Virus record (IMG/VR): IMGVR_UViG_3300031656_000048 | Coordinates: 1 to 20,261 of that record | Strand: one strand, 5' to 3' | Length of the DNA stretch: 20,261 bases | From: a virus | Shown here: positions 2,445 through 8,367 of the stretch, in pieces | Layout: the number at the start of each line of letters is the position of its first letter | How positions within the stretch are numbered: position 1 is the first letter of the stretch | Translations under genes and position numbers: made by a program | Notes under the pieces: model-generated | Databases searched by the model: none | The model's input: only the letters and a program-made list of their open reading frames with translations | Told to the model about the DNA's origin: nothing

Positions 2445-3362
2445 ATGTTAATTAAAAGGGGGGACAAAAGTCTCAATGTAAAACACCTTCAACAGAAACT
2501 ACACTTGAAAGAGGATGGTATGTTCGGTAGAGATACTGAGAAGGCAGTTATTAAATATCAACTTTCTAATAATCTAGCGGTTACTGGAATTGTTGAGAGT
2601 GAAATGTGGGTATTATTATTTAATAAACCATACACTGATGATTGGGGTATTGATGAGGATACAGATGGAGAAGATCAGTATTATACAACAAACTATGATC
2701 AAATAATTCATAAGTATTTTTTACCTAAAGATGAGTATATCAATGGGCCAATTAAAAATGAATATATTTTTCTACACCATACTGCAGGATGGCATAATCC
2801 ATACAAGACAATAGATAGTTGGGGTAGAGATACACGTGGAAGAATTGCCACTGAATTTGTATTAGGCGGCAGAGATCATAGGAATGGGGAAGATAAGTAT
2901 GATGGTGTAATGGTTCAGGCTTTCCCAGAGGGTGGTCAAGGATGGCACTTAGGAAGAACTCATTCCGGATGGATGAACAGACATTCTGTTGGTTTAGAGA
3001 TGTGTTCTTTTGGTTACTTAACATCTGATAATAAAACTTATACAGGAAGTGAAGTAGCTGCTAAAGAGGTGTTTAAATTAAAGGAAGAGTTTAAAGGTCA
3101 TTTAAAATACCATAAGTATTCTGAAAAGCAATTAAAAGAAACTGAAAAGTGGATTAGATACATTGGTGAAAGAGATGGTATTGATGTTAGAATTGGATTA
3201 AAACAATTCATTCAAAAACATGGTCCAACTAAAGGATTTGGATTTCACATGGAAGCTGCACAAGGTAAGGTAAAAGGATTATTAACCCATACCAACGTAA
3301 GACTAGATAAATCAGATTGTTACCCTGATCCAGACTTTGTTGATATGATATTAAGTTTATAA
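2445..3362 (+). CDS. Endolysin: PG-binding domain plus N-acetylmuramoyl-L-alanine amidase
   Basis: This 305-residue enzyme should cut the bond between N-acetylmuramic acid and L-alanine in peptidoglycan for lysis. Residues about 3-60 form a PG_binding_1-type domain (LNVKHLQQKL, then DGMFGRDTEKAVIKYQ). After an acidic linker (residues 65-85) comes an Amidase_2/PGRP-type catalytic domain from about 105. The expected zinc ligands are visible: HHTAG (His111/His112), His282 in LLTHTNVR, and the Asp291/Cys292 pair in KSDCYPDP. There is no signal peptide, so release needs a holin; candidates lie at 1068-1779. The domain order is the reverse of many lysins that put the binding domain at the C-terminus, but is not rare. 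Start follows 15 bases after the previous gene. Confidence 0.93.
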   Translation: MLIKRGDKSLNVKHLQQKLHLKEDGMFGRDTEKAVIKYQLSNNLAVTGIVESEMWVLLFNKPYTDDWGIDEDTDGEDQYYTTNYDQIIHKYFLPKDEYINGPIKNEYIFLHHTAGWHNPYKTIDSWGRDTRGRIATEFVLGGRDHRNGEDKYDGVMVQAFPEGGQGWHLGRTHSGWMNRHSVGLEMCSFGYLTSDNKTYTGSEVAAKEVFKLKEEFKGHLKYHKYSEKQLKETEKWIRYIGERDGIDVRIGLKQFIQKHGPTKGFGFHMEAAQGKVKGLLTHTNVRLDKSDCYPDPDFVDMILSL

Positions 3363-5304: not shown

Positions 5305-5823
5305 ATGATAGTTAGATTATTTGACATACAAAACAATAAAGTTATACCAACAGAACACTGTCACACATTACCGTTCTTAAAAGTATTAATGACTAACTAT
5401 CCAGATACATACATGCAAGTGTATCAGTACATATTTTATATGAGCTGTCCTAATCCAGATCTCAATCCATTCTTTAACTTACCTGAGTATGAAAAGGAAG
5501 ATATAATCATTGAGGAGGTTGGCTTAGAAGAGTCTACTGAAGATGGTAAGATTAGATATGCATTAGAAATGTGTAAGAAGATGTACGAGACACCTACTTA
5601 CAGAGCGTATGTGGGGATTAAAGCTATGCTTGATAGATTAGCTAAATATATGGAAGTTACGGCCATAGAACACGGTAGAGACGGTAATATAAACTCTATG
5701 ATTAATGTTGCTGCAAAGTTTGATGCAATTAGACAATCTTATAAGGGTACATTCACTGATATGAAACAAGAACAAGAAAGTTCAGTACGTGGAGGAGCCG
5801 GATTGGCATATGATCAACTATAA
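5305..5823 (+). CDS. Conserved-looking packaging-module protein, possible small terminase
   Basis: This is a 172-residue acidic protein with no motif I can name. Residues 1-60 contain several hydrophobic helices (LPFLKVLMTNYPDTYMQVYQYI). An acidic linker follows (KEDIIIEEVGLEEST), then a helical C-terminal half (YALEMCKKMYETPTYRAY to FDAIRQSYKG) and a glycine-rich tail (VRGGAGLAYDQL). It is one gene away from TerL, joined to the GroES-like gene by a 1-base TAATG overlap. Genes in this place and size range often encode the small terminase subunit, and the helical oligomer-like make-up would fit. No helix-turn-helix is obvious, so the call remains inference. Confidence 0.75.
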   Translation: MIVRLFDIQNNKVIPTEHCHTLPFLKVLMTNYPDTYMQVYQYIFYMSCPNPDLNPFFNLPEYEKEDIIIEEVGLEESTEDGKIRYALEMCKKMYETPTYRAYVGIKAMLDRLAKYMEVTAIEHGRDGNINSMINVAAKFDAIRQSYKGTFTDMKQEQESSVRGGAGLAYDQL

Positions 5824-6188
5824 TGAATGATAAAGAAAAAGACTCATGGCATTTTTGCTACTGGGATGAACCAATATTTAATAATAAACCAAAAACAAAA
5901 AAGATGATTGAAAAAGTAACACCAACAGGAAAGAAAGTATTGATTAAACAAAAGAAACGTAAAACAAAAACTGCATCAGGATTATTTTTACCTGAGATTG
6001 CTCAGAAGAATGAATGCAAGGGAGTTGTAATAGCAAAAGGACAATCGGTGGAGGAGATTAAAGTAGGTGATGTTGTTCAATATACAGAACACTGTTTACC
6101 AACTACTATGCAGCATGATGGTGAAGATCACTTGCTTATTCAAGAGGGAGATATATTTGCAATTATAACTGAAACAGAAAATGTATAA
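5823..6188 (+). CDS. Phage GroES-like co-chaperonin
   Basis: Residues about 34-118 match the Cpn10/GroES pattern: PTGKKVLIKQ (GroES has a DRVIVK-type strand), then a mobile-loop-like segment KRKTKTASGLFLPE, GVVIAKG, VGDVVQY, a variable roof region, and LLIQEGDIFAII near the C-terminus. The LFL at 54-56 stands where GroES has its hydrophobic IVL tripeptide that docks on GroEL. An aromatic, charged N-terminal extension of about 33 residues is not found in GroES. Phage co-chaperonins such as T4 gp31 adapt host GroEL for capsid folding, and this gene lies between the possible small terminase and TerL, upstream of the capsid gene. It overlaps TerL by 8 bases (ATGTATAA). Confidence 0.88.
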   Translation: MNDKEKDSWHFCYWDEPIFNNKPKTKKMIEKVTPTGKKVLIKQKKRKTKTASGLFLPEIAQKNECKGVVIAKGQSVEEIKVGDVVQYTEHCLPTTMQHDGEDHLLIQEGDIFAIITETENV

Positions 6189-8367
6189 AACGGTCCCTAC
6201 ATACAACAATGGTGTGTGGGAGACTACTGAATTCATAGATAAGTCTGACTTTGTTACATACATTCTAAGTGTATTTAGCGAGCCAGGCCTTTATGGGTTT
6301 ACAGCTGTATCACACATATTCAATGAAGAAGCTAAACGCTTTAATAAACAAGGTTTCTATTGTGATAGTCCATTTAGATCAAAAGATTTTACTGCATATT
6401 GGGAAGACCAGAAGAATAAATGTAGAGAAGGTGTCATATATAATGATGGTAATAAAAGCTTTTTTTTAACCAGAGATTATTACATGTGGTTAAACTTCCT
6501 ACCAATCTTTGATAAAGAAGAAAAGAAGTATGGCTTTGCAAAGGTAAGAGATGCTCAGTATCACATGGCATTGTATGAATTATTAGCAGAGTTAAATAAT
6601 AAACATTCAGCAATACTAAAGAAACGTCAGATAGCATCTTCATACTTTCATATGGCAAAACTCCTTAACACCTATTGGTTTGAAGAGGGAAGTATATGTA
6701 AGATTGGTGCATCATTGAAGGATTATATTAATGATAAGGGTTCTTGGAAATTCTTAGATGAATATAAGACATTTTTAAATGAACATACAGCATGGTATAG
6801 ACCTTGTAATCCTGAAAAGGTATTACTATGGCAACAACAAATTGAAGTTAAGATAAATAGTAGAAAGACAGCAAGGGGATTAAAATCTAAAATACAAGGG
6901 GCTTCTTTTGAGAAGAATGCAACGGCAGGTGTTGGTGGTCCGTGTACATACTTCTTCCATGAGGAAGCAGGTATTGCACCAAAGATGTCTGATACATATG
7001 AGTACTTACGTCCAGCAATGTCTTCAGGTATGATGACTACAGGGATGTTTATTGCAGCAGGATCTGTTGGTGATTTACAACAATGTAATCCATTGAAGGA
7101 AATGATCTTAAATCCTAAAGCAAATGATATATATTCTGTTGAAACTAACCTAATGGATAAGGATGGTACTATTGGAATGGCAGGTTTGTTTATTCCGGAG
7201 CAATGGTCAATGCCTCCATTCATAGATACATATGGTAATTCAATGGTGGAAGAAGCAGTGGAAGCAATCATTGAAGAAAGAGCTGGTTGGAAGAATGAAT
7301 TAAATGGAGAACAATTCCAGTTAAGAATTTCTCAAAAGCCAATGAATATTGGTGAAGCTTTTGCATATAGAAAAGAATCTATATTCCCACAGGGTATATT
7401 ATCAAGACAGAAAAAAAGAATTGAAGAGAAAGAATATCCATATGAACTTATTGAGTTAGATAGGGATGAAAAAGGAATATCTGCAAAGAGAACAAATAAA
7501 CTTCCAATCACTAAGTTCCCAGTAGATAAGAAACAAGTAGATAAGACTGGAACAATAGTAGTATGGGAAAGACCAGTTAAGAGTCCTCAGTTTGGTGCAT
7601 ACTATGCATCAATTGATCCTGTATCAGAAGGTAAGACAACAACATCTGATTCATTATGTAGTATTTTTGTATACAAGAATGCAACTGAAGTAACCAGGAC
7701 TACTCTATCAGGAGATGTTGAGCAGTTCATTGAGAAAGATAAGATAGTAGCAGCATGGTGTGGTAGATTTGATGATATCAATAAAACACATGAGAGATTA
7801 GAGTTGATTATAGAGTGGTATAATGCATGGACATTGGTGGAGAATAATATTTCTTTATTTATACAGCATATGATTGCAAGAAAGAAACAAAGATATTTAG
7901 TTCCTAAACAACAGATACTATTTTTAAAAGATTTAGGTTCTAATAGAACTGTTTATCAAGAATATGGATGGAAGAATACGGGTACTCTATTTAAGAGTCA
8001 TTTGATTTCTTATGCCATAGAATTCTTAAGAGAGGTTATAGATGAGGAAACTGATGTTAACGGTGTTGTAACAAATCAGACATTTGGTGTTGAAAGAGTA
8101 CCTGATCCTATGCTTATAACTGAGATGCTTGCATACTATCCGGGATTAAACGTTGATAGGTTAGTTGCGTTTGGAGCTTTAATTGCTTTTGTTAAAATAC
8201 AACAATCTAATAGAGGATATTCAAAAAGACGTGAATCAGAGGGTAAATCCTTGGAGAATTCAGAAAAAATAAGTAAATTAAAGTATAGCCCCTTTAAAAA
8301 TATAGGGCGTTCATCAAAGTCTGATGGTAATAGACCACGTAGGTCAGGATTTAAAAATTACAAATAG
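6181..8367 (+). CDS. Terminase large subunit (TerL)
   Basis: This 728-residue packaging motor has an N-terminal ATPase and a C-terminal RNase H-like nuclease. The Walker B with catalytic Glu is clear (TYFFHEEAG, about 256-264). The adenine-side/Walker A-like segment is unusual, KKRQIASSYF at 147-156, with no GxGK(S/T). The nuclease motifs are visible: Asp479 in YASIDPVSEG, Glu554 in LVENN, and a late Asp at 659 in VDRLVAFG. The C-terminal tail (after about 675) is basic and probably disordered, a common place for portal or DNA contact. At 728 residues it is longer than many TerL proteins, as in crAss-like phages. It lies directly upstream of the portal gene, 22 bases apart, and starts in an 8-base overlap with the GroES-like gene. 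Confidence 0.95.
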   Translation: MYKTVPTYNNGVWETTEFIDKSDFVTYILSVFSEPGLYGFTAVSHIFNEEAKRFNKQGFYCDSPFRSKDFTAYWEDQKNKCREGVIYNDGNKSFFLTRDYYMWLNFLPIFDKEEKKYGFAKVRDAQYHMALYELLAELNNKHSAILKKRQIASSYFHMAKLLNTYWFEEGSICKIGASLKDYINDKGSWKFLDEYKTFLNEHTAWYRPCNPEKVLLWQQQIEVKINSRKTARGLKSKIQGASFEKNATAGVGGPCTYFFHEEAGIAPKMSDTYEYLRPAMSSGMMTTGMFIAAGSVGDLQQCNPLKEMILNPKANDIYSVETNLMDKDGTIGMAGLFIPEQWSMPPFIDTYGNSMVEEAVEAIIEERAGWKNELNGEQFQLRISQKPMNIGEAFAYRKESIFPQGILSRQKKRIEEKEYPYELIELDRDEKGISAKRTNKLPITKFPVDKKQVDKTGTIVVWERPVKSPQFGAYYASIDPVSEGKTTTSDSLCSIFVYKNATEVTRTTLSGDVEQFIEKDKIVAAWCGRFDDINKTHERLELIIEWYNAWTLVENNISLFIQHMIARKKQRYLVPKQQILFLKDLGSNRTVYQEYGWKNTGTLFKSHLISYAIEFLREVIDEETDVNGVVTNQTFGVERVPDPMLITEMLAYYPGLNVDRLVAFGALIAFVKIQQSNRGYSKRRESEGKSLENSEKISKLKYSPFKNIGRSSKSDGNRPRRSGFKNYK

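Follow-up and report, generated by a model that had tools for sequence, protein, structure and literature searches.

The open reading frame (ORF) at 5823-6188 (plus strand, 121 codons, no internal stop) of a viral DNA stretch of 20,261 nucleotides, referred to here as the window, probably represents two genes: a phage GroES gene that starts at the ATG at 5904 and a gene for a small WHFCYWDE-containing peptide that starts at 5823, joined by a one-base deletion. What looks like a domain extension would then be an overlapping gene fused via the loss of a single base, which makes the locus an annotation trap.

A GroES gene among the packaging genes

Residues 31-115 of the ORF are a genuine Cpn10/GroES domain. 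The match to Pfam PF00166 (E 1.5e-15; score 57.4 bits, cut-off 21.1 bits) spans positions 1-93 of the 93 in the profile, the PHROG 3188 family 'co-chaperonin GroES' was matched at 3.5e-19, and the PDB sequence matches of the ORF are Cpn20, Cpn10 and GroES. An AF2 model of the gene proper (94 aa from M28; 5904..6188, plus strand), predicted from an alignment of the 94-aa form to 25 relatives, had a mean pLDDT of 80.8, and all 29 of its PDB matches at E <= 0.001 were Cpn10/GroES-type chains, with Z scores of 11.8 to 8wuc, 10.8 to 1aon, 9.3 to the gp31 chain in 2cgt and 8.2 to 1g31. Since both the Pfam and PHROG profiles and the predicted-structure matches point to it, the identification is secure, and the Cpn10 identity proposed in the preliminary description agrees with profile search and with fold prediction against Cpn10 and T4 gp31. 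The same description had noted an LFL tripeptide in a mobile-loop-like segment and a C-terminal LLIQEGDIFAII; the latter was found as stated, and the former lies at residues 54-56 (5982..5990, plus strand) within GLFLP, with equivalents in the alignments across the family, where sequence alone makes it a predicted docking site.

The closest comparison with a cellular protein was made with the GroES of Parabacteroides distasonis (L235; PF00166), which shares the Cpn10 fold, a mobile loop with a hydrophobic triplet and a similar length at 35% identity. The alignments show the roof segment KGQSVEEIK (6036..6062, plus strand) to be shortened in the phage protein, by 4 residues relative to Parabacteroides GroES and with an 8-residue gap relative to Thermus Cpn10. 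In contrast to bacterial GroES, the phage family has its own QY[TA][ED]H..P..M.H segment, and its gene is flanked by terminase genes, with no groEL directly downstream.

Upstream of GroES lies a gene for a 172-aa protein (5305..5823, plus strand) that has no Pfam or PHROG family and whose length and place 5' of GroES and TerL are unchanged in the relatives. Downstream, the TerL gene (6181..8367, plus strand; PHROG 6681, 1.9e-62) overlaps the end of GroES by 8 nt and is followed by a portal gene (PHROG 6547, 9.5e-92) and by a major capsid protein gene that matches the Crassvirus family PF23898 (3.1e-29). Capsid, portal and TerL are all of crassvirus type, which identifies the phage as crAss-like (Crassvirales), and because its TerL is merely 25-28% identical to those of crAss and Flavobacterium phages the lineage is a deep one. 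Across the 80 relative loci that came from the first IMG/VR scan, and within the reach of each contig, the genes follow one order: exonuclease, 172-aa protein, (micro-ORF), GroES, TerL, portal, putative scaffold, capsid. Profile, fold and this synteny bear out the earlier proposal of a phage GroES in the packaging cluster; its placement between a possible small terminase and TerL stands as regards position, from which the label 'small terminase' for the 172-aa protein is also taken. The deep crAss-like lineage is one from environmental viromes, with GroES among its terminase genes and, in the majority of its largest contigs, a GroEL located elsewhere. Among the other genes of the window, an N-acetylmuramoyl-L-alanine amidase with a peptidoglycan-binding domain (2445-3362) is a likely endolysin.

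Reading frames upstream of GroES

The preliminary description had read the aromatic N-terminal part of the ORF as a 33-residue extension of GroES with a specialised role. Since the start codon of Cpn10 is M28, the 'extension' amounts to 27 residues, and by reading frames and pS/pN these correspond to the head of a separate overlapping micro-ORF (5823..5903, plus strand) that is in frame with GroES in this lineage only. The micro-ORF begins at 5823, where the putative small terminase gene ends, so that the two overlap. Among the 59 distinct homologous sequences that contain both a WHFCYWDE ORF and GroES, 58 have the WHFCYWDEP micro-ORF (24-65 codons) in a frame different from that of GroES; the GroES frame is +1 relative to the micro-ORF in every one of them and 0 in the window lineage alone. 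The distance from the motif to PVG is 67, 70, 73, 88, 91 or 100 nt in the relatives, always 1 modulo 3, as against 69 nt in the window lineage, and a translated match of the 121-aa ORF to the relatives must switch frame. The relatives have their own GroES ATG (M-x-x-x-V-x-P-V-G and variants), which the window retains at 5904. Just 5' of it lies an A-rich run (5889..5903, plus strand), the probable site of a one-base loss: when the window and L001 are set against L045 and others, the window is one base short in this run, and the loss of a single base before the GroES ATG appears to have fused the two frames in the window lineage. An assembly error was considered and rejected, as the same fused haplotype occurs in three further assemblies (L001, L002 and L148), though these may all be one population because they are at least 99.99% identical.

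In these phages, gene starts are marked by lowered synonymous change over the first eight codons, which reaches 0.37 of expectation in the 172-aa protein, 0.52 in TerL, 0.44 in the portal and 0.31 in the scaffold. Counted from its own ATG, GroES shows 0.32 over codons 1-8 and 1.11 over codons 9-24, where the micro-ORF overlaps it in most relatives. We accordingly discarded the idea of a functional overprinted micro-ORF tail, since codons 9-24 carry no synonymous constraint and the pattern over codons 1-8 is that of the other starts. Of the 20 bases preceding ATG 5904, 15 are A, compared with 7 of the 20 ahead of ATG 5823. In L008 and L049 the head of the micro-ORF is missing with GroES intact, and in L005 a stop interrupts the micro-ORF ahead of the GroES ATG. 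On the strength of the start-type constraint, the A-rich upstream bases and these three cases, GroES is best regarded as an independent gene with its own start across the family, and the window lineage seems still to use the M28 start.

A genuine N-terminally extended GroES, whose 27-residue aromatic arm would bind a packaging or capsid partner, is accordingly very improbable: the ORF of the window is open across both parts with the motif intact, which means that a fusion can be made in this lineage, but the two parts lie in different frames in nearly all distinct sequences, GroES persists in L008 and L049 without the micro-ORF head, the start-type constraint is located at the GroES ATG, and the motif also occurs in a phage contig (L103) without Cpn10. 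An integral N-terminal arm of GroES was rejected on the basis of the reading frames. More consistent with the evidence is the reading of two genes, in which the WHFCYWDE gene would yield a small peptide, predicted to be unfolded, and in which the window lineage would probably make the 121-aa fusion alongside normal GroES because the deletion in the A-run joins the micro-ORF to GroES.

The WHFCYWDE micro-ORF and its register

Across 27 distinct blocks, the codons of the WHFCYWDE motif (5847..5870, plus strand) have a pS of 0.81 and a pN of 0.013, a pattern absent from the other two frames, and in the alignment FCYWDE is invariant among 13 members of 47-65 aa. Judged by this codon pattern, the micro-ORF is to be taken as a real and strongly conserved coding sequence. 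The motif pattern is present in 97 IMG/VR stretches; it was found in none of the species genomes of the bacterial and archaeal collection, a short-peptide tblastn with a 24-aa query, a weak search, gave no micro-ORF in the phage collection, and no motif variant whose first codon starts with A, C or G was found. The two members scanned have no Pfam or PHROG family, and structure prediction gave no secondary structure (pLDDT 61.5). Outside the family, a small ORF with WHFCYWDEPKW lies at L103:3506-3685 (minus strand) in an unrelated phage, where it overlaps a sigma-factor gene at that gene's end and is followed by an 80-aa ORF; the 62-kb contig has no Cpn10 or Cpn60 match. We tentatively consider, at somewhat less than even odds, that the micro-ORF encodes an undescribed phage microprotein, short and mostly unfolded, whose aromatic-acidic motif would bind one conserved host or phage target, which is held in a fixed register over the phage GroES start and which also occurs beside a sigma factor in an unrelated phage. 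A literature search found no description of the WHFCYWDE micro-ORF or of the gene order seen here. That the micro-ORF is instead a leader tuning GroES translation, with a peptide that has no role of its own, would fit its small size, its overlap with the GroES start and its unconstrained tail; we regard this as unlikely, as the motif is conserved as protein and is found apart from GroES in L103.

Among relatives L205-L228, most of those without the micro-ORF have an empty slot or other small ORFs in its place, and in L222 and L224 a micro-ORF variant starts within the preceding gene. The ORFs that fill this slot, downstream of the putative small terminase and upstream of GroES, include L208:4504-4989, L228:4538-4996 and L219:4838-5026; they are of a Gly-rich type of 152-161 aa and a Cys2-His2-like type of 62 aa, with no Pfam match. 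In the close relatives of the window GroES is undamaged, but the micro-ORF is lost (L008, L049), stopped (L005) or changed in frame (L203 and the window itself), and the motif is altered in L168, L187 and L045. From these sequences it appears to be decaying around the window, and the fusion is most simply seen as one of such accidents.

On a tree built from the 172-aa protein plus GroES, Fitch counting gave 15 changes in length or presence; register or presence is altered in 7 of these. That the +1 register is so strictly conserved is unaccounted for by two independent genes. Programmed +1 frameshifting, by which the relatives would produce a minority of peptide-armed lids and the window a hard-wired fusion, would account for it, with support that extends no further: the register is kept over all six motif-to-PVG distances and in the divergent members L318 and L229, and is broken in the window and L203 only. 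Against such frameshifting, inspection of the junctions by eye revealed no slippery site common to them, stops lie 1-3 codons ahead of the GroES ATG in several lineages, the L005 stop likewise precedes that ATG, and constraint is no greater than at an ordinary start. It was rejected on account of the missing common slippery site and the nearby stops, and we hold it to be highly unlikely.

Partner chaperonin and related phage systems

Five relatives have contigs of 107 kb or more, and in four of them a full-length GroEL was found. A single GroEL is present in each of three contigs of 114.1, 114.8 and 107.4 kb (PF00118, E about 1e-76 to 1e-78); a 115.6-kb contig that was located via its GroEL has GroES together with the micro-ORF, and fragments of 45.6 kb and 47.1 kb each encode GroEL as well. 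The GroEL proteins of this cluster have 539-546 aa and share 61-65% identity with Parabacteroides GroEL; those nucleotide-site and apical motifs that were inspected are conserved, and where a relative has both genes, GroEL lies tens of kilobases from GroES. For L229 (114.7 kb, GroES present) the genome yielded no phage-type GroEL, nor was any GroEL found in the 77-82-kb contigs that lack the micro-ORF or have its variant, and the 20-kb record of the window is an incomplete genome in which a GroEL encoded elsewhere in the phage would not show. L229 itself (WLWP01000004.1, 114,697 bp) was binned with a Pseudomonadales MAG and has GroES and an FCYWDE micro-ORF in the +1 register; it is probably a mis-binned phage genome.

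The preliminary description had likened the protein to T4 gp31, which is also phage-encoded with the same fold and works with the GroEL of the host; the absence of a long roof loop may be a further shared feature. The fold stands, and a co-chaperonin of the gp31 type that turns the host's GroEL to the folding of the phage's capsid protein would suit a phage GroES beside head genes, its short roof, and the relatives (L229 and those of 77-82 kb) for which GroEL was not found. The proposed retargeting is nevertheless weakened, because most of the largest relatives have a GroEL of their own, the roof is only slightly shortened, and the mobile loop is of normal length, aligning to Parabacteroides GroES without insertion, whereas gp31 lacks the roof loops and has a mobile loop of 22 residues compared with 16 in GroES (PMC6318259). 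Roof loss was dismissed as a sign of a gp31-like enlarged cage, as a Bacteroidota GroES is short there too. We regard the gp31 mode as less likely than not. The GroEL genes with conserved motifs suggest that most of the large relatives sampled encode a GroEL-GroES pair themselves, and because GroEL is found in four of the five relatives whose contigs reach 107 kb, reliance on such a pair is no less likely than the use of host GroEL in the manner of gp31.

The 94-aa GroES is predicted to cap a GroEL ring via its GLFLP mobile loop, and in most large relatives that ring can be the phage's own. Because the gene sits with those for terminase, portal and capsid, GroES is presumably produced while structural proteins fold; the capsid protein is a plausible client of GroES, and capsid or other large structural proteins are likely clients of the chaperonin pair. 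We infer the partner ring, the client protein, the timing and the production of both forms of GroES.

GroEL/GroES analogues are reportedly common among viruses of the Southern Ocean (PMC8407431), a virioplankton chaperonin survey of 2017 is cited in PMC7185714, and PMC11348598 mentions GroEL or GroES in the neighbourhoods of phage polymerases. The group of Bacteroides phage DAC16 likewise has a short-roof phage GroES (34% identity) together with a phage GroEL; the two genes are adjacent in DAC16, in contrast to their wide separation in the relatives studied here. The neighbouring GroES and GroEL genes of DAC16 (L161:5007-6906) are annotated as hypothetical proteins. Within the present family, a DUF932 protein (L231:353-1276) adjoins the phage GroEL, and similar ORFs lie beside GroEL in L230 and L232.
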